Assembly (NCBI GenBank): GCA_023014365.1
Contig: JAEBUN010000062.1
Coordinates: 1 to 64,000, forward strand
Source: Lepiota brunneoincarnata
Lineage: Eukaryota > Basidiomycota > Agaricomycetes > Agaricales > Agaricaceae
Direction: 5' to 3'
Length of the DNA: 64,000 nt
A model generated the notes under the pieces. That model had not been told where the DNA came from. It saw nothing but the letters and a program-made list of their open reading frames with translations, and ran no database searches. The position numbers and the translations under genes are program-made. This document shows positions 3,603 through 61,493 of this stretch, piece by piece; the first letter of the stretch is position 1; each line of letters begins with the position of its first letter.

Positions 3603-4070
3603 TTATCCAGTAGATGAACCCAGTAACGCCGACAAATCATCTGAACCCAGCTGAGTGTCCGGTGAAAAAGCGAGCGTCCCACTGCCGAGGCTGCCACCCG
3701 CCTGAGTATCTGCCCCCGAATTTGCAACGGCCCCCGTAACGGAATCAAGGGGCCCGTCCGGCTGCCTCTCCCAAATAACGGGATCCATCACAGCACGAAG
3801 AGACAGACCACCACCACCACCACCTCCTCCCCCTCCTCCTATCCCTCCACCAAGCAACTGCCCAAGCGGACCACCAATCGGACCGACATTTGGTTTCGCC
3901 GCAAGTTGCCTACGTTGTTCTTCCCCTTCTCCCCCTCCCCCTCCTAAGCCCCCTATCGTTGTAAGTCCGGTTGTAACGATTGTGGTGACACTGCCAAGCT
4001 GAGATACGGGTGCTGCCTGAACGAAAACGGCGAGAGAAACGAGGGCGACAAAACACGCTTTTCCAAGCAT
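3603..4070 (-). CDS. Secreted protein with dibasic (Kex2-like) sites, paralogue 1
   Basis: 155 aa. I chose the ATG at 4070, not the in-frame one at 4145, because it puts a clean signal peptide (MLGKACFVALVSLAVFVQAA, cut before AP) at the N terminus, as in the paralogues at 7.0 and 9.3 kb. The mature part is rich in Gly, Ser and Leu. It contains EQRRQLAAKPN, a dibasic site followed by Gln-Leu, a run of about 11 glycines, and near residue 94 the module MDPVIWERQ. That module matches KDPALWKRQ in the third paralogue. The dibasic sites suggest cleavage by Kex2 in the Golgi and release of short peptides. No enzyme domain or Cys pattern is seen. Function is unknown; a wall or signalling peptide precursor is an inference. 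Confidence 0.7.
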   Translation of the reverse strand: MLGKACFVALVSLAVFVQAAPVSQLGSVTTIVTTGLTTIGGLGGGGGEGEEQRRQLAAKPNVGPIGGPLGQLLGGGIGGGGGGGGGGGLSLRAVMDPVIWERQPDGPLDSVTGAVANSGADTQAGGSLGSGTLAFSPDTQLGSDDLSALLGSSTG

Positions 4071-4239
4071 GGTTGAATCGAGTGAGAATGTGAGGGCTGA
4101 AAGCGAATATGCTGTTCTTTCGCAAGCGTTCTCGTTGGGGACCATTCACTTTTTGCATACACCAATTTATATGACGACGATTTGGGTTCAACTTTAAGTA
4201 ATCGGATATGCTTCGAAGCGAACTAGATTGGGCTCCGAG

Positions 4240-4612
4240 CTAGAAGTCCACGAGTTGGAAATTCAAAAGCACTTCCTCCGTGTCTGAGACTGGGGTCAGA
4301 TCCCTCTCGGTCTTCTCACTATAGCCCATAGTAGTAACCAACCTGACCGTATCAAGGTCACCACGTCCATAGCTTATCGAGGGACTGTACCCGACCCTTT
4401 CGAGATACAGAGTAGACCCGACGAAATAATCAATACGGCATTCGATGCTTGCGAGCAAAGTCTACAGTAACGAAAATGCCGCCAATGCCAGAATCATCCG
4501 CCAGAAGGATAGCATTCAATGTCCAGAAATAGTCCGAAAGTACGTCAGCGGCACCCATGGAACCCCGCATATCTTCAACACCCTGTCCGCCTGGCGAGTC
4601 CAAGGAGAACAA
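4240..4612 (-). other. Two adjoining uncharacterised open frames
   Basis: Two minus-strand frames (4612-4430 and 4458-4240) overlap by about 29 bases and read like ordinary protein (LLADDSGIGGIFVTVDFA, then GRGDLDTVRLVTTMGYSEK). They could be exons of one gene or a frameshifted relic. I do not recognise the family, and no good splice pair joins them. Confidence 0.2.
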
Positions 4613-4914
4613 TGTCCATGCAGCCGCTAGTTAGTGTTGGGTCACCGTACGTCCTCACGGTGACTCCGCTCCTGGAAGAGGCTGTCGACAGAACACCTAG
4701 CGAGTCACCATCAGGCATCCGGTAGCGAGCACGTATCGAACAAGTGTCTGTCGTACTCGGCTGTATTTAGTGTTTCCACACACTGACCTTCTAGGCATCG
4801 AAACATGACGAGATGTACCAGGCGCTGATAATGCGGCTCAAATTTCAAAGGTACCGAACGAGCGGCAAAAAGAGCACGAGGTTAGTAAAATGAAATGTCC
4901 AAATTGATAGCCGT

Positions 4915-6389: not shown

Positions 6390-8165
6390 CTGCTGGTTTG
6401 GGGTGCTTGTATGAGCTTCGGATATTTACATGTGTAGAGTTAGGGTCATGTAAATCTAGTGTTGCCGATGGGTATGAGCGACGACGGACAACAGTCGAAA
6501 CTAGGTATACACAATTGTCAAGCTGAACTCGGAGAGCGAATATAGCATCTACGTCGTTAGGCCTTGGGGGCCACACAATCTGAGAATATGATTTTTCCAG
6601 AACAGTCAGCCGTGATATATGGTATTGGAAATAACTAGGTAAGCATTCACCGGGTAATTTGGCTGACAAAAATAAACGGAAGATGGAGATTATAAAAGCC
6701 CGCCCACGATACAATAAAGCCTTAATGAGGGGATCCAGGGTAAAGCGATACTCGGGTAATTGATAAAAAGAACGACTACAAGACGAGCCAAAACCATAAA
6801 GTTCTACATCTTTGAGAATCGCCCATATTTTACTGACGTCTCGAAATGTTGGATCCGGGACCGCCCAGCCTGCTCAGGGATTCTGGTCAACCGGGGGACT
6901 GGCCCAAAGGCCGCTGACCAGTGAATAATCCACCCAAACAAGGTCCCAGAATGCCACCAAGCTTCCAAGCCGCTTTTCCCAGAGAAACCGGATCCCTCGT
7001 ATCACGGGGGCTAGGCAGAAACACCTTGCTCAGGCTTAGCCCCGCTAAGCGCTTGAGTGAGCGGGTTTGGCTGTGAAAGCGTGCCAAGTAAAGCAACTGC
7101 AGCGCCCGCAGGGCCAATGCCATTAAGCTGCCTACGGACTTGTGCTTCTCCTCCCCCAGTCGAAGCGGACGGCGTTGGGTTCTCGCCAAGTAGTCCGGTA
7201 AGCGATTCAACGACAGGGTTTCTCTGTCTGAGGTCGGTGTTGAATGGGCCATTCCCGACGTTGAGGCTGCCGAGTTGCCTGCGATCCGCTCCTCCTGCTC
7301 CTACTCCTGCTCCTGCTCCTCCTAGCTCTCCGATCGGTCTGAGGAGACCAGTAGGGCCTTGGAGTTGAGGAGCGGGCGCTGCCTGGACGAAAATGGCGAG
7401 GGAAACGAGAGTGATAAAGTAAGTTTTGCTGAGCATGGTTGGAATGATTTTTCAGAGTACGATGAAGGAAGGGTGACTTTGTAGACGTTGGCGGGGGGGA
7501 GAAAGCTCTAATTCCGAAAGGGACATCATTTTATACAACGAATGCTGCATCCGAAGGAATCAACATACCAATTCTAGACTAGTCACCCCATCGCCACTAT
7601 ATGGCCAATGTGAGTGAATTCCCAAGCTAGAACTTTGGAGTCACTAGATGGATGGGTGGGGCACTTTGGGATCGAGAATGCGTACTATCTTCTCGAGTTG
7701 TTGACATTCTTTTTGATCCCGACCTAACCTGCGGATATTCTATTGATAAAATAAGAATGACTCGTTTTTTTTGTTGCCAAAGAACCACGTTCGATACACA
7801 CTCAAGACACATCGTTCCCAGACTTTAACGCCCGAGCATCCAACATTCGGAACAGCATCCAGGTGTGCCGGCTGCAGGCTTTTTTTTGTCTCATTATAAT
7901 TGTTATGATGCACAAAGTATGGCCGATATTGGAGTGGCATACTTGGCCTGTGGAAGCCTCGCAAGGTACTCATTCGGTTCCTGGGTTCACAGGCTTCCTC
8001 TTCGGCCTCATCACCTGGGGTCTCCGATGCTTTCTTGAAGCCCACAGTATCGATCTTGGTCACCATTCTATAATCTCCCTTATCATAATGTGATGCTATG
8101 TGTTACCCGGGCCCCATACAGCGTAAGGGTGTTTGTTCACCAGAAGCCGAAAAACAGTTCCGGGA
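6390..8165. repeat. Tandem duplicated segment, copy 1
   Basis: This stretch is recognisably related to about 8815-10495. Matching blocks include the 3' flank (cacgatacaataaagc against catgatacaatagagc), the coding frame, and the promoter side (tcttctcgagt.., cccaagctagaa.., caccagaagccg..). The copies are diverged with many small indels, so the duplication is old. It created secreted paralogues 2 and 3. Ends are approximate. Confidence 0.65.
7011..7436 (-). CDS. Secreted protein with dibasic (Kex2-like) sites, paralogue 2
   Basis: 141 aa, starting MLSKTYFITLVSLAIFVQAA (signal peptide). Two repeated processing-type sites follow, ADRRQLGSLNVGNGPF and QVRRQLNGIGPAG, each a dibasic pair in front of Gln-Leu. 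The segment after the first site aligns with paralogue 3 (GNGPFNTDLRQRNPVVESL against GTGPFNAGLGQGNPVLDL). Compared with paralogue 3 it lacks the third module. A relic of that module (DP..LWEKR) can be read downstream of the stop in other frames at about 6990-6960, so this copy was probably truncated by small indels. Function is unknown; Kex2 processing is inferred. Confidence 0.7.
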   Translation of the reverse strand: MLSKTYFITLVSLAIFVQAAPAPQLQGPTGLLRPIGELGGAGAGVGAGGADRRQLGSLNVGNGPFNTDLRQRNPVVESLTGLLGENPTPSASTGGGEAQVRRQLNGIGPAGAAVALLGTLSQPNPLTQALSGAKPEQGVSA

Positions 8166-8814
8166 TAATATCAGTCCGGAAATATGCCAATGTGGACCGA
8201 TTCCGGGGCAAACCCTACCTACCCCCCTGTTCGCGTTGCCTGCTGAACCCGAATGAAGAGTGGATCGAGCAGCTCCTCATGAGGGGCGTTTGCATGTGTA
8301 GTACAGCCAGTGTGGTTAGTGTTGCGAAAGATGTAGAAGGCCGAGCCACGCTGCGTGGCGGCTGGCTCATCATGGTTGACTATACGACAGACCAGACTCG
8401 GCGTATCGCCAGGTCAACCGTACGGAAGCCATGACAATTGACAGCGGATACTTACCGAACGGAATCAATCCGACTGATGTAATAGCACTCCCACTAAAGC
8501 TCCTTCAGAACACTTTCCCTTAAGGTGCCATGCCTCGTTTCATAGCACCGTCCAAATCACCCGGAGATAAAGTGATGGACAACAGAGAACTTGGAACGGT
8601 AATCATAGCAACATCTTTCTGGGGGGGGGGATGCACTCGACTAGCGCTGGGCCACAAAAGTAACCAAGGCGATCCCTCGACGAACTTAACCCCACCCTGC
8701 ACCGCCACTCCAGTCTCTCAACTTCGTGATCACCTGGGAGTGTGCATTTGTTTGTACATTGCACAGATTGGAGTGAGCGGCCACCGGGACCGCCGAATGC
8801 CATGTTGCGAAATG

Positions 8815-21878: not shown

Positions 21879-22588
21879 TGTTATGAACAGTCCAGATCAA
21901 GAGGAACAAGAACAATTATTCAACTTTACAAGATGGGTACAGGAGACCACAGACCAGTTGTGAGCACAGGAATATGAAGACGAAGAAGGGGAATACTACA
22001 ATGCCATGCAGGACTTAGCAAGAGAAGCAGGAATGGAGATAACTCTGGAGGATATTCTGGAATACCCCAAGGATGGAGAAGATAGCCATGGATCAACTGA
22101 TCCAACTTCCAATATGGATGGAAGCACCAAGAGAGTGGAGAGTGAGAATGGAGGAGATTCCATGGAGATAGAATCAGGAGAAGGAAACTATGAGTCAGAG
22201 GAAAGCAATGGAACATCGTACAGCAGTGGAATGGAGAGCGAGGACACTGACTCATTGTAAGATATAAATAACAGTGGGATGCCATCAGCTAGGATGTGCA
22301 TCATGGTCAAGACTGCACAGGACAAGTAGAACAGCCCAATAACCTATAACGAGTATATAGTATCTCATAGGTATATGAGGCCTGTACAAGTAGAGATTAA
22401 AGCCTCAAGCTTTAATCTTGTTAACAGTGGTCATTAACCCTCTCTGCCTTAACTTGGCATGTTCCCTTGTTATATCACTGAGTGTGATCCACTAAGCTCT
22501 GCAAGGCCAACCATCTCAGACACCTTGTAGAGTGATTGAAGGCCATCTCCAGTTATCTTCAGATACAGAAAAAGCATGGATCATAACA
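21879..22588 (+). repeat. Family D LTR, copy 1 (710 bp), inside element E
   Basis: Ends TGTTATGAAC and GATCATAACA. It contains the U3 ORF (21883-22260), TATATGAGG in place of the TATATAAGG seen in the other copies, and AAGCTTTAATCT as presumed transcript start. It is flanked by family E leader sequence on both sides. I see no clear target duplication (ctctg / cactc). Confidence 0.8.
21883..22260 (+). pseudogene. U3-encoded acidic ORF, copy 1 (one stop)
   Basis: 125 codons from ATG at LTR base 5 to TAA. One internal TGA replaces an Arg codon (QL-stop-AQEY against QLRAQEY in the other copies), consistent with CGA to TGA. The rest, MQDLAREAGMEITLEDILEY and an acidic Ser/Glu-rich tail ending TDSL, is intact. 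Confidence 0.7.
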
Positions 22589-23597: not shown

Positions 23598-24295
23598 TGT
23601 TATGATCCGTGCTCCTTCTGTATCCGAGGATAACTGGAGACGGCCTTCAATCACTCTATAAGGTGTCCGAGACGGTTGGCCTTATAGAGCTTAGTGGATC
23701 GCGCTCAATGAGATAGCGAGGGAAGACGCCAAGTTAAGGCAGAGAGGTAAACGACCGCTGTTAACAAGATTAAAGCTTAAGGCTTTAATCTCTACTTGTA
23801 CAGGCCTTATATACCTATGAGGTGCTATATACTCGTTATAGGTTACTTGGCTGTTCTACTGGTCGTGCGCAGTCCTGACCATGATGCACATCCTGGCTGA
23901 TGGCATCCTAGCGTTATTTATATTACAATGAGTCAGTACTCTCGCTACTGCTGTGCGATGTTCCATCGCTTTCCTCTGACTCATAATCTCCTTCTCCCGA
24001 TTGTATCTCCATGGAGTCCTCTCCGTTCTCGCTCTCCATTCTCTCAGTGCTTCCATCCGTATCGGAGGTTGGATCGGTTGATCCATGGTTATCTTCTTCG
24101 TCCTCGGGGTATTCCAATATATCCTCCAAGGTTATCTCCATTCCTGCTTCTCTCGCCAGGTCCTGCATGGTGGTGTAATATTCCCCTTCCTCGTCTTCGT
24201 ATTCTTGTGCCCGTAGTTGGTCTGTAGTCTCCTGTACCCATCTTGTAAAGTCGAACAATAATTCTTGTTCCTCCCGGTCTGGACTGTTCATAACA
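23598..24295 (-). repeat. Family D solo LTR (698 bp) with perfect 5-bp target duplication
   Basis: Inserted in the gag of element E. GTAAC is present at 23593-23597 and again at 24296-24300. Ends are TGTTATGA..TCATAACA (inverted). It is richer in CpG than its surroundings, so it is a younger insertion than its host. It carries an open U3 ORF (see 23923-24291). Confidence 0.93.
23923..24291 (-). CDS. U3-encoded acidic protein, 122 aa, intact frame
   Basis: Starts at LTR base 5 (MNSPDREEQELLFDFTRWVQ) and stops at a TAA about 370 bases into the LTR, still upstream of the LTR's own TATATAAGG promoter. It therefore lies wholly in U3. The first half is amphipathic and Trp/Phe-containing; a helix-like ARE-AGMEITLEDILEYPEDEED segment follows; the tail is acidic and Ser/Glu-rich. 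No transmembrane segment, zinc motif or known domain is recognised. Two other copies (21.9 and 46.2 kb) keep the frame, and the length difference between copies inside the ORF is 9 nt. No host-like promoter is visible before it. It could be expressed from the genomic RNA's 3' LTR or from flanking promoters. Confidence 0.6.
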   Translation of the reverse strand: MNSPDREEQELLFDFTRWVQETTDQLRAQEYEDEEGEYYTTMQDLAREAGMEITLEDILEYPEDEEDNHGSTDPTSDTDGSTERMESENGEDSMEIQSGEGDYESEESDGTSHSSSESTDSL

Positions 24296-33058: not shown

Positions 33059-33445
33059 TGTTATCAGAAACCACATCAGAAGGACGGTTACTTTTAGTTC
33101 ACATTCCCATGTCACTATGAAACTATCAGTAGTGTACATCAGAAGGACTATTCTTAGTATACGCCTCATGTTTTCTTATCTCTGACTCATAGTTACCCCA
33201 GTCCGAACCATTATAGTAGGAGTACAGCCACACTTAGGAGTATATAAGGATACAGTACAATACCTTGTATCCTTATCTTAGTGTTATACAGTTCTTGCCT
33301 CCTATATCTCTTTGCCCTTAAAACCAGCTGGACTATAGTGCTCCGTCGTCTCCAAGTCACGCCTAGTAGGACAAGACCAAGTCTGTATAGACATCTTGCC
33401 ACAAACGCCGTGCTACTCAAGAGCGAACCCCTAACCCGGGTAACA
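33059..33445 (+). repeat. Family A 5' LTR
   Basis: TGTTATCAG..GGGTAACA. TATATAAGG at 33241-33249. The presumed transcript start ATCTTAGTGTT is at 33275-33285, 34 bases downstream. Confidence 0.92.
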
Positions 33446-36800: not shown

Positions 36801-39422
36801 AATCAAAGATGGCGATCAATGGAAAGCAGCGTTCAAGACTCCCATGGGTCTTTTCGAACCAACTGTTATGTTTTTCGGACTCTGCAATAGTCCCGCAACG
36901 TTCCAACACATGATGGACACATTATTCTCCGAAATAATGGAGAAAGGAGGAATCATCATCTACATGGATGATATCCTAATCTATGGTAAAACCCAAGAAG
37001 AAACCGACCAACTTACGGAAAAAGTACTGCAAATCTTGCAGGAAAACGACCTCTACCTCAAAACAGAGAAATGCAAGTTCAACAAACAATGACTCAAATA
37101 TCTCGGCATGATCATCATGCCAGACGAGATCAAAATGGATCCCGGAAAACTCAAGGGAATAGAAGACTAGCCAGTACCAAAAACAGTCCGACACGTTTGG
37201 AAATTCATCGGATTTTGTAACTTCTACCGGAAGTTCATCTGCAGCTACTCCCACCACACCAAACCCCTGAACCAACTCCTTTCCAAATCAAACAAATTCG
37301 AATGGAAAGAAGAACAACAGAAAGCGTTCGAAACACTCAAAAATGAATTCCTAAAAGAACTGGTACTCCTCATGCCCGACTCCACAAAACCCTTTGAAAT
37401 AGAAGCCGATGCTTCTAAATTTGCATCAGGAGCTGTCCTATATCAACACGACATCAATGGAATACGGAAACCTGTATCATTCTATTCAAAGATGTTTGGA
37501 CCAGTGGAACGAAACTACGATATCTATGACAGGGAACTTCTCGCAATTATCCAAGCCCTCAAAGAATGGCGCCATTACCTCCTTGGCAGCCCCCATACCG
37601 TCCGTATCAGAACGGATCACCAAAACCTAACATACTGGCGTAAACCCCAGAAAATCAACCGCCAACAAGCACAATGGGTCCAGACCCTTGCTGACTACAA
37701 CTTCAAATTAGAATACATCCCAGGATCAAAGATCCCCGCACCAGACGCCCTATCAAGACGTCCAGACCACATCCCTGATGAGGATAACAATAACGAAGAC
37801 GTCACCATGCTCCCAAACAACCTCTTTGTCGCCACTGCTGACATGAAAGATCAAAACCTGATCACAATACTCCCAGAACACCTCTTTATCGCCACCGTCA
37901 ATATGGAACTCCAAGAAAGAATCACGGAATCACCCAAATACGACGCTAGAACCACTGAAGCATTCAAACTCCTAAAAGAAACCCATCCTAACGCCGCCGA
38001 TAAAGACTTCGGAACAGTTCCGACCTCAAATGGTCCACTCCTCACATTCCAAGAACGTGTCATTATTCCAGAAGACCTCCAACTCAGACACAATGTCATC
38101 GCAAGATACCACGACCACCCTACACATGGCCACCCTGGAGAACAGGAAACATACTGCCTGGCCAAGAAAGAAGTATATTGGCCAGGAATGTCAACATTCA
38201 TAAAGAACTACGTCAAAGGCTGTCCAGAGTGTCAACAACACAAAATCATACGCAGACCAGATCGTGCACCAACTCAACCGATCCCACCATCATCTTCCAA
38301 ACACCCATTTGCACAGATCTCATGGGATCTTATCACCGGTCTACCACCTAGCGCCGGTCACAATGCGATATTGTCTGTGGTGGACCATGGCCTTACGAAG
38401 GGGGTAATTTTCATCCCAACCTCAGATCGATCAAACGCCGACGACATCAGACGACTATTAATAGAAAAAGTCTTCACCAGATTCGGACTACCTGACAAAA
38501 TCATATCAGATCGAGACCCCAGATTCACCGCCAACTCCTTCCAACAACTAGCCAAATGATTAAACATACAACAGGCATTCTCAACTGCATACCATCCCCA
38601 GACAGATGGTTCCACTGAACAATACAATCAGGAAATCAAAACCTACCTCGCCATATACTGCACCAGAAACCCTCTTGACTGGTCGGAAACCCTCCCTATC
38701 GCTGAGTTTGCACACAACTCCAAAATACATGCCTTAAGGCAGAAATCCCCATTTGAACTAATCATGGGATACAACCATCCACCGATACCCACAGTAATGG
38801 AAACATCGAACTTTCCATCAGTAGATGAACACATCAGACTCCTTGATGATGCCAGAAAAGAAGCACACGCAGCACATCAACTCTCCGCCGATATTATGAA
38901 ACAAAGAACCAGAAGAACTGTCAAACCCCTTGAAACATGTCAAAAGGTATGGCTAGAAGCCAAGAACCTCAAACTTCCCTTCATTTCCAACAAAAATCCC
39001 CAAAATGACTAGGACCCTTCCTTATCACAGAAGTCTTATCGCCACTCACCTACAAGCTAAAACTTCCGATCAAATGGAAGATACATCCAATATTCCACAG
39101 AAACCTTCTAACTCCATACACCGAAACAGAAGCATATGGATCTCATCCGACTCCACCACCACCAGACATCATCAATGAAGAAGAGGAATACGAAATAGAA
39201 GCCATTCTAAATCACCGCCAACACCGCGGAAAACTCCAATACTACATCAAATGGAAAGGATACTCCCACACGGAGAACGAATGGATCACCGATGAAACAC
39301 TTCATACAAACGCCGAAGAATACTTAACCAAGTATAAAGAAGCTCATGGAATCCTCCAGAAAGAACAGGAACCCACCAGAACCAACCAAAGACAACTTCG
39401 CTCCCACACCAAACATACTTAA
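33817..39422 (+). pseudogene. Family A gag-pol with chromodomain (stops, one frameshift)
   Basis: One long frame from ATG 33817. Order: Gag; zinc knuckle CFQCGAKDHWVSKC (about 35,270); protease ALIDSGAQGNFIS (about 35,780); RT with [15 protein letters not shown] and YMDDILIY (about 36,965); RNase H EIEADASKFASGAV (about 37,400); integrase H2C2 (HGHPGEQ.., CPECQQHK, 38,120-38,240) and core SWDLITGLPPS..SVVDHG; chromodomain EYEIEAILNHR..YYIKWKGYS..NEWI (39,190-39,290). In-frame stops: TGA at 33841, 34675, 34795, 36121, 36655, 37090 and 38557; TAG at 37168. Most TGAs fit CGA to TGA. Near 39,000 one extra base shifts the frame, next to a TGA in place of Trp. The final stop is TAA 39420-39422. Catalytic motifs are intact. 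Confidence 0.9.
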
Positions 39423-39425
39423 AAG

Positions 39426-40551
39426 ATGCCAATGAACCTCGACCTCACTCGCCCCCAAACTACTCCCCCTTTTTCAACAACACCTTCACCAACCTCCTCA
39501 TCATCCTCCGTCGTCATTATAAACAATGCAAATGTTGAACATACTACACTTCAAACAACTCCCGTTCCGGCCCCATCTCCCTACACCCCCTCTCACACCT
39601 TCGCCGCAACATACGCCTCCCTCAGGGACAAGACCCCCGACCCCAACGACACCCCAGAACCAACAGCCGCCCCAGCCGCCTCCCTTAGATACCATACAGC
39701 TGGAGTATGATCATATGGACCAGATCACCCTTCTGACGGAGATCTGCGCGAGGCTGCCACCAACGGAGCCTTTACGACTAAATTGGAACACACTTCAATT
39801 TCAGAATACGACCAACAACTCTGGTACGACTATACCCACCACATACGACAGACTAAGGCTCTCGCTACTGCGTACAATACGCAACGTGCCTGGGCAGAAT
39901 CACTTGAGCGACTTCTCTGCTCAAGATCGGGCCTCATGTCCGAGGTGTCGAAGAACCTACCCAAACGAGATGAGGTACATACCTTGCAGCCCCCCACCGC
40001 AACCATCCCCACCACTACCACAACGACCACTGCTGCTATCATCACCACCGTCCCCAACAAGGGAAGAAAGCCCACCAGTGTCAGAAATCCCTTCAGACTT
40101 CTCACCCCCACCAAGGACACCACCCACACCATCGCCAGTAACAACGTCCCGATTCGGAACTCCCCCAACCCCATTCACCCACAAACCAACCCCCGAACCA
40201 CCGACAGATCAGTCTGCATCCAATGCAGACACACAGGACACTGGGCCATGGATTGCCCCCAATTTGCCTGCCTCGGATGCAAGCAATATGCCCCAGGGCA
40301 CTACTCATACAACTGCATCAAATATAGATGCCCCCATTGCACTGTCTTCCAACCATGCCATAAACGGACCGAATGCCCAAGTCAAAAGACTCAACACACC
40401 CCCTATTCCAGAAATCCTACAACCCGTCCCTCGACTATTCCCACAACTCACCATTGATACATTGACCTCACCCATGAGGATTACTACGAGGAGTGCTACG
40501 ACGATGTGGCCGAATCAAACATCACAGGAGAACCATGCAGTTCCTTCTGAA
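39426..40551 (+). pseudogene. Family A ORF3: zinc-knuckle protein downstream of pol
   Basis: ATG three bases after the pol stop and in the same frame as the chromodomain. Ser/Pro/Thr-rich N terminus, then SISEYDQQLWYDYTHHIRQT and a helical segment. Next come a CCHC knuckle CIQCRHTGHWAMDC (about 40,220) and two further Cys/His clusters (CLGCKQYAPGHYSYNC and CPHCTVFQPCHKRTEC). After a TGA at 40455 an acidic tail (HEDYYEECYDDVAES) runs to TGA 40549. Two internal TGAs (39708 and 40455) fit CGA to TGA. The knuckle suggests an extra nucleic-acid-binding protein. A homologous ORF with CFKCHQIGHWAHSC exists in family E (60.2-61.5 kb). Confidence 0.65.
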
Positions 40552-40794
40552 GCAAACCAAATCACCCCACCAGAAGAAAGGATCGAAAGTCCCCATTTCA
40601 GACGCCTTCTATACGACATCTTTTACCCAGGACAACCCCCATTCCCAGAAACTGCCACCATACTCGATCTTCACAGAACTCCCACTCCCACCTTCTCCCC
40701 CATCATTCCCCCCAGACCAGACTCCACCGACCCACCACAGATCGATTACTATGAACCAAATTACCTAGCCGAGTACCCAGAAGAAGGAAACTAA
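39526..40794 (+). other. Uninterrupted 422-codon overlapping frame in ORF3 region
   Basis: A second frame, open for 1269 bases, overlaps ORF3 almost completely. It is Pro/Thr-rich at first and then more mixed (ITTRSATTMWPNQTSQENHA, YEPNYLAEYPEEGN). It has no stops while the ORF3 frame has two TGAs. It may be a chance product of C-rich, T-poor composition, or a real overlapping gene. Confidence 0.3.
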
Positions 40795-40831: not shown

Positions 40832-41676
40832 TGTTATCAGAAGCCACATCAGAAGGACGGTTACTTTTAGTTCACATTTGTAAGGGGACAATCCACAAAC
40901 ACCCCTAAGCCTCCCAGCACACTGTACATCCCCCCTTTCAAACGCTTACACCCCAAACATAACCAGAATGCACCAGAGGTCCCCTCACTGCCCAGTTAAA
41001 CCCCTCCCTTCACCCTCCTTAACCCTCACCGGCTTCCTCCCATTTCCTGTAGACTTTAGACTGTTATCTTCACTCCCCACACTCATTTTAATCACACCTG
41101 GCCTTGTGCAACACCCAGACACCACTGTCAAGCCTTGTTCAATTTATATTGATTATATAAGTCAAGTATATACATAGTTTTCGCCTGCAGGGGTTCCCTC
41201 ATCCTATTCTCTTAGGATTTCCCTGCAGGTATGGACTCCCTACTTAGCTCACAGATTAATAATACTTAGGATTTCCCTGCAGTGACGTTTCGGCTCCCTG
41301 AGTTGTCCGAACCCTCCAGGTTGCCCTAACAACATTCCCATGTCACTATGAAACTATCAGTAGTGTACATCAGAAGGACTATTCTTAGTATACACCTCAT
41401 GTTTTCTTATCTCTGACTCATAGTTACCCCGGTCCGAACCATTATAGTAGGAGTACAGCCACACTTAGGAGTATATAAGGATACAGTACAATACCTTGTA
41501 TCCTTATCTTAGTGTTATACAGTTCTTGCCTCCTATATCTCTTTGCCCTTAAAACCGGCTGGACTATAGTGCTCCGTCGTCTCCAAGTCATGCCTAGTAG
41601 GACAAGACCAAGTCTGTATAGACATCTTGCCACAAATGCCATGCTACTCAAGAGCGAACCCCTAACCCGGGTAACA
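40832..41676 (+). repeat. Family A 3' LTR, split by a solo LTR
   Basis: 387 bases in two parts (40832-40878 and 41337-41676), after removing the 453-base insert and one copy of its 5-base duplication. Confidence 0.9.
40879..41331. repeat. Solo LTR of family G nested in the family A 3' LTR
   Basis: TGTAAGGGGACA..CTAACA, 453 bases. ACATT stands directly before (40874-40878) and after it (41332-41336): a perfect 5-bp target duplication. Without the insert the host LTR reads continuously. Inner repeats cctgcaggg/aggatttccctgcag occur near 41,190-41,282. Orientation is uncertain. Confidence 0.9.
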
Positions 41677-43461
41677 GCAATGATAGTTGCATTTGGCTGG
41701 TGAGAATCCTTTTGAGAAGTATGCAACTGGGTGTTTAACTCCATTATTGTCACGTTGAAGGAGGACTGCTCCTGATGCAAATAGTGATGCATTGCATTCA
41801 ATTTTGAAGGGTTTGTCTCGGTCTGGTACCATTAGTACTGGTTCACTTTGAAATTTTCTCTTGAGGGTATCAAAGGCATTTTGGCATTCTTCTGTCCATT
41901 TGAATTTCTTGGTTTTGGACATTAAAGCATTGAGGGGTTTGGCCCATGTAGCGTATTGATGTATAAACTTCTGGTAGAAGTTGCAAAATCCTATAAATTT
42001 GCATACATCACATGGGGTAGTCGGTGTTGGCCATTCAGCAATGCCTTTGAGCTTTGCTGGGTCCATTGAGACTGAGTCCAGAGTGATGATAACTCTTAGA
42101 TATTTGAGTTGTTGGCGTTCGAATTTGCATTTCTTGGTCTTGAGGTATAGATTGTTGTTTTTAAGTATTTTGAGTACTTCTCTTGTAAGATGTTGGAGTT
42201 CTTGTTTTGTTTTTGTGTGAATGAGGATGTCATCCATGTAAACAATTACTCCTCCATTATCAATGAGTTTTTGGAATAGTGAGTCCATCATGGTTTGGAA
42301 GGTTGCTGGGGAGTTGCACATTCCGAAAAACATGACCGTAGGTTTGAATAGTCCTTGGGGTGTTCTGAAGGCTCCTTTCCATTCATCTCCTTTGCATATA
42401 CGGATATTATTGTATCCTGCTTGTACATCAAGTTTGGTAAAGTATCATGATCCTTGGAGTTTGTTGAGAATATGTGAGATGAGGGGAAGGTTGTATGCAT
42501 TCTTGACAGTATGCTTGTTGAGGTACCTGTAATCTTGACAGGAGTGTAGCTTTCCATCTTTCTTTCCTACAAAGAAGAAAGGTGAGGCCATTGGTGATTC
42601 GGATGGTCAAATGTATCCTTTCTGAAGATTTTCTTTGAGAAATGTATCAAGTTCCTTTTCTTCATTAAGGGAGAGTTGGTAGGATTTCATGGCAATTGGT
42701 TTGAATGATTCCTTGAGTTCGATCTTGTGATCCCATGGTTGTTGTGGGGGAAATTGTTCAGCTTGTTTCTTGCTGAATACTGGGAGGTATTCGTGGAATT
42801 CTGTGGGTACAACTTTTCTTGGGTTGTTGTTCTTCTTTTCTCCATGTTGTACAGCAAGGAATTGTGATGCTGAGGCTTTGAAGTTGATTTCTTCGAAGCT
42901 TGTAGGCTCGAGGGTGGAGATGTGGTTGAGTTGGTCATTGTAGATCCAATCGGGTTCCATAGATTGGATGAGTTCTTGGAAGATAGTGTTGTCCCAATGT
43001 TTGTTTCTCCAGCGTAATTGTTTGGCATCCCAGTCGATGTCTGGATTGTGTTCCACAAGCCAAGGGAATCCAAGGATGAGTCTTGGGCTTCCAAGGGAGA
43101 CTACTTTTGGTTTGATCTCCATATCCTTTCTGTTAACCGTTAGGTTGAGGGTCATATAGTGGGTGGCTGTCCCATTTTTGTTAATAGATCCATCGGCATT
43201 TCGTACTTCGATGGGTCAATCAAGGGGTACTGTCTTGAATGAGTGTTGTCTGACCATTCCAGGGTCGATGAAATTTCCTGCTGCTCCTGAGTTGAGTAGG
43301 ACAAGTAGTTCCACACTTTCAGGTCCTTCCTTAGTGATTTTGTGATTTTGGATTTGGCAGGGTAGATGTATTACACGTGCTGACGATTCCTGTAATTTTA
43401 TGACATTAATATCATTGTGTGGATAAGGAAGGGAAGGGGGTTTTTGTGGAGGGCTAGACAT
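41677..43461 (-). pseudogene. Family D protease, reverse transcriptase, part of RNase H
   Basis: Protease LLNSGAAGNFIDPGMV (about 43,290; the usual catalytic D-S-G reads N-S-G). The segment LILGFPWLVEHNPDIDW follows. RT N-terminal part is at about 42,900-42,500. RT core [20 protein letters not shown] and YMDDILIHT (about 42,240) keep the catalytic Asp pair. Connection domain AEWPTPTTPCDVCKFIGFCN and the start of RNase H follow. Stops and frame changes occur at about 43,217, 42,606 and 42,448. Confidence 0.8.
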
Positions 43462-43475
43462 GGTGGCTAGTCTCC

Positions 43476-45089
43476 TTAGGCAAAATCCTTAACCAGAGGG
43501 GCATCTGGGTGGTTGGATTCATTTGTGAAGTGTTTGTAGATGTCCTTGACTTCTTCGTTGGTTGCATCTTCTAGTATGTTGTATAAGGAGTTCTTTTTCC
43601 TATAACTTGCTTGTCTTCTTCTGGATATCACATTTGACTGGTTTCTGGCATCCAAATTGTGGGGTAATTTGGATCGGTGATATATAGTCTTCTTGGTGGG
43701 GCATTTGCAGGCGAAGTGTCCAGTCGTGCGGCAATTGAAGCATCTCTTCTCCTTGAGATCCCTTCTCTGGGCATCTGTGAGGATTGCATTGAGAGCTTCA
43801 CGGGTGTGCTCCTGTACCAACTGGTGGAGTCTGTCTTCTTTGGTCTCCTCATCTTCATCAGCTTCCTCGGTGAGTAGATCTGGCTCTTCCTCAAAGTTGA
43901 GGTTGTAGACCACTTTGGTGAGTTGGTCAATATCCATTGTGTTAGGGTCTGTCACTTGATAGGGGAGTGGGACACAGCATGTAAAAGCATTTCTTTTCCC
44001 TTTAAATGAGCGAGGGTGTGAAGTCGTTGGAAATGAGGGAGCTCCTCAAGTTTGCATATAGTCACATTGAGTTTGTAATATTTGATATGCTGTTCGAGCT
44101 TGCTTGAACCAGTCATTGAGTTTGTTTCCTGGATTGAGGCTAATTGTCTTGATTGCAACAGGGCGATCCAGCCTGTTCTTGAAATAGTTGACCGCCACCA
44201 CTCCATCTCCAAGGTCAGCCTGATAGGCAAGTATCTGGAACTGGGATATGTAATCGTCAATATACTGTCCATTCTGTTTGAGGTGGCAGATTCTGTCCAT
44301 TGCATCTGCGGGGATGTTGTTTGGGGCAAAGGATGTGTCGAGTCCTTCCAGGAATTTCTTCCATGTTGGAGGGTTCTGGCTTCCATCAAGTTCCTTGTTT
44401 GATTCCAAGAATGCTCCTCTCCATGTTGTGGTGGGGCCAGTGGACATGTATGAAAGGGCAAATTGTATCTTGGTTTTGTCATCAGAAAAGGCACTGGGCT
44501 TTGCATTGATGTACATATAATTGTACTGCATCCTTCCAGAGACGGTAGTAGTCAGTAAAGGTTGGGGGTGTATTGATCTTTGTGGAGGAGGCCATATCGT
44601 TAGTGTCAGAGGTTGTGGATTCCTCGTCGGAAGTGTGAATAGACCTGGTAGTGGGGCTAACTTCAGATGATTCAGATTGTACAGGGGAACTGGATCGAGG
44701 TGGTGAGTGTACTGGTGATCCAAGTGGTGGTGTGAGGGGTGACAATGTTCTTGGGGGTTCCTGTTGTGAAGTGTTGTCGCAAGTTCTTGTACTTGTTGAG
44801 GGTTGAGGACCGGAGGATGGGGTAGATGTTCTATGAATTGGCTCCCTGAGCTTTGAGTGGGTAGAGGTGGCAGTTCTTTCAGGTGGTGGTTGTTTGGGTA
44901 GGGATTGAAGAACTGATGCTGGGGGTGCTGGGTATCCTGGGTCTTCTGTTCGATGTTGAACTCTCTTGGTAGGTTGTGTAGGGTATGGTGTGGAACCAGA
45001 GGGTGAACGAGTGAGGGGTATAGGTTTTGTTTTCTTTTTATGGTCCATGGTGGAGGGGGTGTGAAGTTGGGTTTGGAGTCGGTTGTCAA
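43476..45089 (-). pseudogene. Family D gag
   Basis: Pro-rich N terminus from ATG 45089. Capsid-like core is at about 44,500-44,100 (FALSYMSTGPTTTWRGAFLE, FLEGLDTSFAPNNIPADAM, YISQFQILAYQADLG). Nucleocapsid part at 43955-43476 has MDIDQLTK.. and the CCHC knuckle CFNCRTTGHFACKC (about 43,720). A frame change separates the two parts near 44,000. Confidence 0.75.
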
Positions 45090-45206
45090 CCAGTCAGAAC
45101 TGTTAGATTCTTCATAGTCGGTGGCAAGGAGGTCATTTCAGTTTGTAGACAGGGTGTAGAGGGAAGAAGTTGAAGGTGAAGGTGGGGTTGAAGGTGAATA
45201 AACAAT

Positions 45207-45332
45207 GCTTGCAGGTGCATTATCCCAATCGATGCTTGAAGGTGCAGATGACCTATATACAATGCTTACAGGTGCATTATCCCAATCAACACTTAAAGGT
45301 GTGGATGACCTATCAATGCTTTTGGTGCATCT
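45207..45332. repeat. 63-bp tandem repeat, two copies, in the D leader
   Basis: Unit begins AATGCTTGCAGGTGCATTAT and includes GGTGCAGATGACCTATATAC. It lies between the family D priming site and gag. Confidence 0.7.
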
Positions 45333-45514
45333 GACCAAGGGTGTAGAGGGTATGGTGGCCTGCTCTATGGGGGTGTATCACTGGACAGCAGCAAGGCATG
45401 TCATCAGATACGGTTGGCACTCGGATAGCAATAAAGCATATTGTCTGCCGGTGTGAAAGGGTAGCAACAAGGCGTACCAATACCATGGGGTGTATGATGG
45501 AGGTTGTCCAAAGG

Positions 45515-45526
45515 AAGCTTTAATCT
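45515..45526 (-). promoter_or_regulatory. Self-priming primer-binding site of family D
   Basis: AGATTAAAGCTT (minus strand) two bases after the LTR. It is the exact 12-base reverse complement of AAGCTTTAATCT in the LTR (45710-45699), which lies 35 bases downstream of TATATAAGG (45745-45737). Confidence 0.8.
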
Positions 45527-45528
45527 AA

Positions 45529-46238
45529 TGTTATGATCCATGCTCCTTCTGTATCCGAGGATAACTGGAGATGGCCTTCAATCACTCTACAAGGTGTCCG
45601 AGATGGTTGGCCTTGCAGAGCTTAGTGGATCATGCTCAATGAGATAACGAGGGAACATGCCAAGTTAAGACAGAGAGGGTTAACGACCACTGTTAACAAG
45701 ATTAAAGCTTGAGGCTTTAATCTCTACTTATACAGGCCTTATATACCTATGAGATACTATATACTTGTTATAGGTTTATGGGCTGTTCTACTTGTCCTGC
45801 ACAGTCTTGACCATGATGCGCATCCTAGCTGATGGCATCCTACTGTTATTTATATATTACAATGAGTCAGTGTCCTCGTTCTCCATTCCACTGCTGTGCG
45901 ATGTTCCATCACTTTCTTCTGACTCATAGTTTCCTTCTCCCAATTCTATCTCCATGGATTCTCCTCCATTCTCACTCTCCATTCTCTTGGTGCTTCCATC
46001 TATGTTGGAGGTTGGATTGGTTGATCCATGGTTATCTTCTTCATCCTCGGGGTATTCCAGAATATCCTCCAGAGTTATCTCCATTCCTGCTTCTCTTGCC
46101 AGGTCCTGCATGGCGTTATAATATTCCCCTTCTTTGTCTTCATACTCCTGCGCTCGCAACTGGTCTGTGGTTTCCTGTACCCATCTTGTAAAGTCAAATA
46201 GTTGTTCTTGTTCCTCTCGGTCCAGACTATTCATAACA
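45529..46238 (-). repeat. Family D 5' LTR (710 bp) with U3 ORF
   Basis: TGTTATGAAT..GATCATAACA. Contains ORF 46234-45857, TATATAAGG at 45745-45737 and the transcript-start site at 45710. Confidence 0.88.
45857..46234 (-). CDS. U3-encoded acidic protein, 125 aa, intact frame
   Basis: ATG at LTR base 5 (MNSLDREEQEQLFDFTRWVQ), stop TAA at 45857. Same protein as at 23923-24291, with substitutions spread through it and a three-residue longer tail (GMENEDTDSL against SESTDSL). An in-frame extension to ATG 46276 reaches into flanking DNA and is rejected as a start. It lies in the 5' LTR of an element with recognisable gag-pol. Confidence 0.6.
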   Translation of the reverse strand: MNSLDREEQEQLFDFTRWVQETTDQLRAQEYEDKEGEYYNAMQDLAREAGMEITLEDILEYPEDEEDNHGSTNPTSNIDGSTKRMESENGGESMEIELGEGNYESEESDGTSHSSGMENEDTDSL

Positions 46239-59565: not shown

Positions 59566-60199
59566 TGTTATGCTGATTAGGCGTCTGCAGGGCTCAATGC
59601 GATTAACAACAAGTTAACTGTTGAGTAGTGCTAGCAAGTCTAAGGCAATGCCAAAGAGCAGGAACAAATATGATGTATAACAAGACAAAGCTAGGGATTA
59701 CAAGTAATACCTAGGTCTATATATACTACTGGGATGACTGGCATGTGATAAGGGAAAGAATCACATGCGAACAGACAAGAATCACAAGCCAAAGAGAACT
59801 AACTATAGATGGGCAGTGGCATGTAATAAATAAATATAGCCAGGCAGTGACTATGGGCAGTGACATGTGATAAGTAAAAAATAGGTGGACAAGTGTGTGA
59901 TAGAGAAAGATAAAATGGTAACATTACCCCCTTCTAATCTTCAAACTCTGTTTCGAAGCTAGTAAATGGTGGGGTACAGGCGTAGGGTGCAGATCACAGA
60001 AGTAGTTGTTTCTAGTTGTAGCCGTATCCATCATAGGCATAATCATAGTCATTGTATTGGCCATCGCCAATGATATCGTACGTTCGTCCAAAGGTATTGG
60101 GATAGCATTGCGCCGTCCTTTCGAGCATGGCATTACATTGGTTTTGGTGATAGACAGGGCAAGTTCACATCTAATGCCCTGGTGTGGCGTGGTTACAGT

Positions 60200-61493
60200 G
60201 ATGACAGGTATATCAGGGGCAGCTGTGTGCCCAGTGGCCAATCTGATGGCACTTGAAACAGTGATTTCTTCCAACATCATATGAGCAGGTTGTTGTGGCT
60301 TGGGGTGTGACAGTGGGGGTGGTATGATGTTGAGGAGGTCTTTGGGGTAGGGGGTGGGTCTCCTGCTGTTGATGGGCTTCCATTCGTTGGGTGAACTCAT
60401 CCACTGTTTGTCATCAAGTTCGGGGTGGTGGTGTGGAGGCAGGAGGTGTTACCTGGGTTAGGGGTTCACTCTTTGAGTAGCATGGAGTTCGACACAGGAT
60501 GTCTATACAGACTTGGTCCTGTCCTACTATGTGTGACTTAGAGACAATGTAGCACTATAGTCCAGCCGGTTTTAAGGGTGAAGAGATATAGGAGGCAAGA
60601 ACTGTATAATACTAAGATAAGGATACAAGATATTGTACTGTATCCTTATATACTTCTAAGTGTGGCTGTACTCCTACTATAATAGTTCGGACCAGAGTAA
60701 CTATGAGTCAGAGATAAGAAAACATGAGGTGTATACTAAGAATAGTCCTTCTGATGTACACTACTGATGGTTTCATAGTGACATGGGAATGTAAACTAAA
60801 AGTAACTGTCCTTCTGATGTGGCTTCTGATAACAGGGGGTATGACAATAGGTGGGGTAACAGGACTTGGAGGTTGTTCAGGTCGAACTTGTTGGTGGGTG
60901 GAGTGAAACGGGACTTGTCAGGATGGTCTGTTGGTTGGCATAGGTTGAATCAGACTAGGGATTGTGGGCACAATCCGTATACTGGTTGTGGAGCTGCAAT
61001 GCTCAGTGAAGATTTGACAGAAGGTGGGGTCAGACCATAAGTGGTTGAACATATTTTGGTTTGCTTCTTTGACCCTTTCGACACTTTGTTCAAGGCCTCA
61101 GAGGCAGAGGAGGTTTTTGTGGAGTTGGAAGAAGCCATCACAAACTTCTGTTGATACTGCTGGTGTTGGTGCGATAAGAAGCAAAAAGACAAGGGTAGAG
61201 GCACTGTCAACTTTGTTAATATAGTTGCTAATGGTAGCGACAAGCGGGGGAGTGGGGATGGCAGTTGGCATTTCAGTGATGGGTGGAACGGGGCTGGGGG
61301 GAGTGGTCTGTTGTGGTATGTGGCGTGGGGGCAGTGTGTCTTCAGTGGTGTTAAGGGCACTCTCAATGAGGAATTGGTAGAGGATGCGGTTGGAGTTGGG
61401 TTGTGTGGACGAGGACCTGGTAGTTCCATCTAGTGTAGGTGGGGTAGAAATAAGAGCAGATTCAGATGGGAGCAATCGGATGGAGGAAGGCAT
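60200..61493 (-). pseudogene. Family E ORF3 with zinc knuckle, split by a solo LTR
   Basis: MPSSIRLLPSESALISTPPT.. (61493 down), a Ser/Pro/Thr-rich N terminus like family A ORF3. The C-terminal part, beyond the inserted LTR, holds CFKCHQIGHWAHSC (about 60,230). Frames are broken. Placement directly downstream of pol matches family A. Confidence 0.55.
60447..60834 (-). repeat. Family A solo LTR inside family E ORF3
   Basis: 388 bases, minus orientation, ends TGTTATCAGAAG..GGTAACA. Flanking five-mers are ggagg and ggggg, a possible decayed target duplication. Family E coding sequence lies on both sides. Confidence 0.85.

Follow-up and report, generated by a model that had tools for sequence, protein, structure and literature searches.

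A conserved open frame in the U3 region of a fungal Ty3-type LTR is probably the end of a longer accessory gene

Introduction

Coding sequence in the 3' LTR and extra ORFs in LTR elements are already known from several systems (nef, sag, CRM and aORFs). The HIV nef gene is a 3'-terminal accessory gene which lies partly in the U3 of the 3' LTR and is expressed from doubly spliced mRNA, and the sag gene of MMTV is encoded entirely in the U3 of the 3' LTR (both as given in the excerpted text of PMC12789967). Plant CRM group A elements are Ty3-type chromoviruses whose coding region extends into the 3' LTR, where it specifies the integrase C-terminus with its targeting (CR) motif (PMC3059260, excerpted text). 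Genes additional to gag and pol include the plant aORFs and brtn of Boty from Botrytis (PMC7264820); brtn is antisense according to a title cited there, and the excerpted text describes no overlapping pair which enters U3. The excerpted text of a survey of fungal LTR elements (PMC3248453) describes no extra or overlapping ORFs after pol.

The retrotransposon family analyzed here, family D of Lepiota brunneoincarnata, compares with these systems as follows. Like nef and sag, its 3' gene, which we call ORF A, has coding sequence in the U3 of the 3' LTR; unlike sag, only about its last quarter is located there, and unlike nef, most of its upstream part is overlapped by a second gene, ORF B. Family D is likewise a Ty3-type chromovirus with coding sequence in the 3' LTR, as are the CRM elements, but the LTR-coded part belongs to a separate overlapping ORF rather than to the integrase. 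With Tf1-like self-primed Ty3 elements, family D and a second family of the same genome, F2, share a 12-nt self-priming complement and a pol that ends in a Tf2-1-like SH3 domain and a chromodomain; D and F2 have in addition the B and A genes after pol, and none such are described for Tf1-like elements in the excerpted text of PMC2864245. For fungal Ty3 elements or chromoviruses, our search of the open-licence literature turned up neither an overlapping accessory pair nor an accessory gene of this kind that runs into U3. We know of no genes resembling B or A in Tf1.

Results

Family D LTRs and their open frame

The window, by which we mean the whole 64,000-nucleotide stretch of contig JAEBUN010000062.1 that was analyzed, contains three family D LTRs and part of one element:

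21879..22588, + strand: family D LTR D1; U3 frame 21883-22260, interrupted once, by a TGA at codon 27
23598..24295, - strand: family D solo LTR D2, with a 5-bp target duplication; U3 frame 23923-24291, open
41676..45528, - strand: partial internal region of the D3 element, whose 3' end is absent here
44046..45089, - strand: D3 gag (Pfam Retrotrans_gag); reverse transcriptase and RNase H, likewise matched by Pfam, lie within 41662-42333
45515..45526, - strand: self-priming primer binding site of D3, 12 nt, 2 nt after the LTR
45529..46238, - strand: D3, the 5' LTR of a family D element, whose internal start (TTAGATTAAAGC...) adjoins the LTR on its 3' side
45699..45710, - strand: LTR 529-540 of D3, where R is inferred to begin; complement of the primer site
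45738..45745, - strand: TATA-like box of D3, at LTR 494
45857..46234, - strand: U3 open frame of D3, 125 codons and stop, corresponding to the C-terminal part of ORF A in full-length elements

All three LTRs have TG...CA ends and an ATG at LTR base 5, which opens a frame of 125 (D1), 122 (D2) or 125 (D3) codons whose product has a pI of about 4.05. These coordinates and the acidic 122-125 codon ORF agree with the initial annotation of the window, and we re-found two further features that it had reported: the single in-frame TGA of one copy, which is D1, and the perfect 5-bp target duplication which marks the 23598-24295 copy as a solo LTR. Perfect 5-bp duplications flank 16 of the 35 complete LTRs gathered from the window and from fetched genomic stretches; D1 has neither a target duplication nor recognized internal sequence alongside.

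Family D is large: a first look returned 808 LTR candidates in the 55.6-Mb genome, 40 of which were scored. A search with the ORF protein as query gave 855 candidates, and among the best-scoring 150, a choice which biases the open share upward, a hand count found the U3 frame free of stops in 73 and with at least one stop in 77. TGA predominates among these stops, which is what CpG decay of CGA would give.

The frame ends at a stop codon at LTR 380-382. The TATA-like box at LTR 494 and the 12-nt self-priming complement that begins at LTR 529 together place the start of R near 529, so the ORF ends inside U3, with the transcription start deduced from these two features. LTR and primer site are laid out as in the self-primed elements described in PMC2864245 (excerpted text). 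In D3, in family D copy L017 and in F2, the primer site is complementary over 12 nt to the inferred start of the RNA, and L028 has no such match; in F2 the complementary stretches are located at 33274-33285 and just after 33445. In both families this is Tf1-like self-priming. The inferred U3 is approximately 528 nt long in D and 216 nt in F2, a difference of about the same order as the coding tail. The copy of the frame in a 5' LTR lies upstream of the inferred transcription start and should thus not be expressed from the promoter of that LTR.

The internal region identifies the class of the element. The order gag, protease, reverse transcriptase, RNase H and integrase is present in the decayed copy L009 (protease and integrase core recognized by eye), followed by an integrase C-terminal SH3 domain that Pfam matches as Tf2-1-like. 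A chromodomain (Pfam Chromo) is at the end of pol both in L009 (E 2.3e-14) and in F2 (E 4.4e-13). Judged from its domain order and primer site, family D is a self-primed, chromodomain-bearing Ty3-type retrotransposon. The U3 frame of L009 is distinct from the pol frame with the chromodomain, which ends at 7293, before the 3' LTR starts at 8412. A CRM-style integrase C-terminus in the LTR is ruled out, as pol of D ends approximately 1.1 kb upstream.

The U3 frame shows codon-phased constraint

We compared silent and replacing variants common to at least two LTR copies, which are mostly inherited from transposing ancestors, with variants private to one copy, which reflect decay after insertion. 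CpG-linked sites were excluded: these repeats decay strongly at CpG, and counts that keep such sites mix decay with selection. The test used 34 of the 35 LTRs, the one with two 1-nt deletions being left out. In the U3 frame, which offers 100 silent and 220 replacing sites, shared variants comprised 40 silent and 25 replacing changes (ratio 0.28, p 4.8e-7), whereas private variants were neutral (ratio 0.94). In the same 34 LTRs, silent changes were not in excess in either of the other two frames across the ORF, nor significantly so in any frame of the rest of the LTR (lowest p 0.08). The result was repeated on the 3' ends of full-length elements, where 28 of 32 rows passed the identity cut (in L037, L049 and L053, three of the four that failed it, the junction is not followed by a D LTR): 35 silent and 18 replacing changes, ratio 0.23, p 2.2e-7. 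Across tests the constraint ratio ranges from 0.20 to 0.28.

Insertions and deletions follow the same pattern. The initial annotation had noted that the size change between copies keeps the frame, and this extends to the larger sample: the shared indels are of 9 nt (4 of 35 LTRs) or 6 nt (5 of 35), and only private ones, in two LTRs, are of 1 nt each. The comparison of silent with replacing changes, which it had suggested as a check, also came out in favor of coding. Its concern that the ORF might be routinely broken in full-length elements received a mixed answer, as the U3 part is unbroken in 17 of 32 copies, and 3 of the 15 broken ones have no D LTR there.

We considered that the frame might be non-coding, open by chance or through conserved regulatory sequence in U3. 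The stops in 77 of the 150 scored copies, which are old and decayed, could be taken in its favor, but most of the stops are of the kind that CGA decay yields. The conservation tracks codon phase in one frame and is missing from private variants and from the remaining LTR, and the shared indels preserve the frame; this rules out a non-coding U3 for practical purposes, and we find the idea scarcely credible. From the pattern of substitution, the family D U3 frame is a genuine, constrained coding sequence of a Ty3-type LTR.

An upstream continuation of the frame in full-length elements

The copies in the window are unable to show what precedes the frame in a complete 3' end, since D2 stands alone as a solo LTR, D3 is the 5' LTR of its element and D1 lacks recognized internal sequence. 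In fetched D 3' ends the U3 frame is continuous upstream across the junction (...DEDIRPYEGDN-V-MNSPD...), and the resulting ORF A starts downstream of pol, passes through the priming tract and ends in the U3 of the 3' LTR. Frame A of copy L046 is open for 515 codons, 392 upstream of the LTR ATG and 123 from that ATG on, so that the U3 tail is the C-terminal quarter of the ORF. L050 has 398 open codons upstream of the LTR but a stop in U3. These are the longest uninterrupted upstream stretches among the 32 D copies, and most of the others have at least one stop in the upstream part; openness is biased upward here, because high-scoring copies make up most of the fetched stretches and an open A was the reason for choosing several copies of D and F3.

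This changes how the LTR frame is to be read. The initial annotation had proposed that the LTR encodes its own protein wholly within U3. The stop does precede R and an ATG is present at LTR base 5, but the frame extends upstream through the priming tract in full-length elements, and we therefore dropped a stand-alone U3 gene as the main reading.

The last 75 nt before the D LTR are almost invariant at every codon position, as expected near the priming tract, and so have no power to discriminate between readings. Just upstream of the priming tract, approximately 15-40 nt before the LTR, D 3' ends (L009, L046) contain a little-varying inverted repeat, GTCTGATG-AGGA-CATCAGAC, with a fold energy of -11.3 for 48 nt. 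Many of the stops in D 3' ends are TGA that fit CpG decay of CGA. By hand count, 22 of the 32 copies have fewer stops in A than in B, a count in which lengths are unmatched and some rows are frameshifted.

A short separate protein could still start at LTR base 5 or at another ATG (MSDEDIRPYEGDN...), 38 nt ahead of the LTR, with the upstream openness as a by-product. Both ATGs are retained, in 31 of 32 and 34 of 35 copies respectively, and the clearest constraint is downstream of both; however, ATG contains no CpG, so its retention says little. The evidence from the upstream part of ORF A, given below, bears on this further.

An overlapping pair of ORFs after pol in three families

ORF B of family D encodes a zinc-knuckle motif and a second Cys/His cluster and ends about 75 nt before the LTR. 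ORF A overlaps it in the +1 frame. Two further families in the window, F2 and F3, have the same arrangement:

39426..40550, + strand: F2 ORF B (zinc-finger frame); its ATG is 3 nt after the pol stop at 39420-39422; two internal TGA in this copy
39526..40794, + strand: F2 ORF A, 422 aa, +1 relative to B; ends approximately 37 nt before the 3' LTR
40832..41676, + strand: F2 3' LTR, with an extra segment; the matching 5' LTR is at about 33059-33445
59924..60400, - strand: F3 ORF A remnant, closed by a TAA immediately before the LTR
60174..60260, - strand: F3 ORF B zinc-finger motif; a stop lies within this copy

ORF A starts after ORF B by 58 nt in D, 100 nt in F2 and 64 nt in F3, with the same order in all three. 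In an hhalign comparison, the zinc region of B in D proved homologous to that of B in F2 (E 6e-6); A of D and A of F2 show no detectable similarity. In F3, the TAA of A is the final triplet before the TGTTAC of the LTR in all six fetched copies, each of which is open for 370 codons, the six having been chosen for an open A. Among 108 F3 matches, 46 cover nearly the whole 158-residue query, and by hand count 34 of these 46 have no stop. Of F2 copies of A, 49 of the best 99 (from 586 candidates) are free of stops.

The junctions account for the different ends of A. In F3, GGGGGTAA followed by the TG of the LTR closes A before the LTR; in D, GGGGATAA followed by TG puts the TAA out of frame A, and A continues into U3. 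In F2, the tail of A past the stop of B, where A alone is present, has 34 silent to 14 replacing changes (p 7e-8), so that by this count it is clearly coding.

At 39420-39428 in F2, ORF B is in frame with the pol stop, with a single AAG codon between TAA and ATG; the shared frame and one-codon distance make readthrough or reinitiation possible. Around the B motif ESNITGEP, approximately 21 nt are identical between F2 and several D copies, silent positions included; the stretch is at 40511-40531 in the window and about 100 nt before the LTR in D 3' ends. This identity could be due to dual coding, or to a splice or recoding signal.

Evidence for A inside the overlap

We shuffled codons while keeping the protein of B and counted stops in A, with the unused frame as a control. 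F2 copies had 0-5 stops in A against 2.5-6.3 expected (p <=0.03 in 10 of 13 copies), and the six F3 copies, chosen for an open A, had 0 against 4-6 expected; the control was flat in both families. In D, where 30 of the 32 rows were used and two short ones skipped, all 30 copies had A depleted of stops, 28 of them at p <=0.05, but 25 of the 30 had the control frame depleted at that level too, and the D shuffle is thus not a clean test of A.

Variants in the overlap were also classed by their effect in both frames (Table 1). Among sites that are replacing in B, silence in A was favored in D (p 0.0017; p 0.51 when repeated on private variants) and in F3 (p 0.025), and not significantly so in F2 (0-600, p 0.20; 600-1030, p 0.30). 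Among sites that are replacing in A, silence in B was favored in F3 (p 1e-6) and in F2 600-1030 (p 2.6e-7), with no significant effect in D (p 0.14) or F2 0-600 (p 0.27).

Table 1 Variant rates by site class in the D overlap.
Silent in both frames: shared 6/11; private 0/11
Silent in A only: shared 39/293; private about 0.17
Silent in B only: shared 26/301; private about 0.17
Silent in neither: shared 20/327; private about 0.17

The N-terminal part of A in D has 16 silent to 9 replacing changes (p 0.0016), and 11 to 1 among variants with at least three carriers (p 5e-5). Silent changes are not in excess in frame A of F3 taken by itself (with all variants the ratio is 1.21, with shared variants 1.06, and under most cuts 1.02-1.36), which is expected if B dominates and equally if A is idle; the truncated F3 copy of the window is included in these counts and excluded from the two-frame site-class rates. 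Together, these patterns make dual coding of A and B in the overlap likely, with selection on A there shown less strongly than on the U3 tail.

These data also bear on the two other ways of producing the tail. In the first, a +1 frameshift or splicing near the end of B would add the tail to the C-terminus of B. Ty3 recoding is a +1 step, as B to A would be; the constrained frame in F2 switches from B to A near the stop of B, and the identical nucleotides at ESNITGEP would fit a recoding or splice signal. However, A is depleted of stops far upstream in F2 and F3 with a flat control, its N-terminal part is constrained in D, and the constraint on B of F3 extends as far as A does (p 0.001), with B apparently reaching the priming tract in the window copy, so that no switch to A is needed there, and A is open nonetheless. 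We consider such an extension unlikely. The short separate protein introduced above sits poorly with the constraint on A in the D overlap and with the F2 tail, which is constrained though that stretch of the window copy has no ATG; we regard it as very improbable.

Homologues, domains and structure

Searches for homologues found none outside this genome at E <=0.001 among 382, 804 and 5960 candidates, which is weak evidence of absence given the uncertain fungal coverage of the database, and a 292-aa piece of D ORF A had no protein database match. Pfam contains no family for D ORF A (515 aa), its tail or F3 ORF A, in line with the initial annotation, which recognized no domain in the U3 protein; F2 ORF A gave a single match below the cut-off, to Transposase_21 (E 0.14), and a piece of F2 ORF B a sub-threshold zinc knuckle (E 0.0074). 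The best matches in a PDB sequence search had E values of 0.35 and 0.44. No sequence or domain homology with the nef/sag protein family appeared in the Pfam, protein and PDB searches, and we found no sequence relation between family D and HIV nef. A low-confidence structure prediction for the tail, with a mean pLDDT of 51, gives a single helix together with an acidic end that is disordered.

Discussion

The architecture of the B and A genes, the openness of frame A and purifying selection on its U3 tail are shown for family D. From these sequence patterns we consider it quite probable that the U3 frame forms the last part of accessory gene A, a longer gene kept by selection that overlaps the zinc-finger gene B, runs into the 3' LTR and is translated by leaky scanning. 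Family D would carry two accessory genes after pol that overlap in different frames, with A beginning 58 nt after B in the +1 frame and extending beyond it. On a single 3' message, translation could then begin at the ATG of B for one protein and at the following ATG for A, a mechanism suggested by the order and spacing of the starts in the three families. In F2 and F3, A stops at or just before the LTR, while in D it reads 122-125 codons into U3. Reverse transcription copies this U3 tail into both LTRs, and for this reason solo LTRs and the 5' LTR carry the frame in which it was first noticed.

The acidic tail of A may be flexible and serve in regulation or assembly; as a guess, its role could also be to interfere with host silencing. 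More broadly, we lean toward the view that fungal self-primed chromoviruses have a conserved overlapping accessory pair after pol, and that one lineage ran the second gene through the priming tract into its promoter-bearing U3.

If this is true, overlapping accessory genes and coding in U3, known from complex retroviruses, arose in fungal Ty3 elements too, and the B/A pair resembles the regulatory region of those viruses. A single genome in which A stops before the LTR (F2, F3) or enters it (D) offers a natural comparison, with which the cost and benefit of protein code within a promoter region can be studied. For annotation, the case is a warning that ORFs in solo LTRs may be the severed ends of longer genes.

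Two fetched stretches show unusual arrangements of family D LTRs. In L009, positions 518-1662 hold a complete D LTR followed directly by a second D LTR without its first 275 bases, ahead of an internal region. In L010, a D LTR at 4063-4776 with a 5-bp duplication is located inside an open frame whose product presumably resembles a Tc1/mariner transposase.
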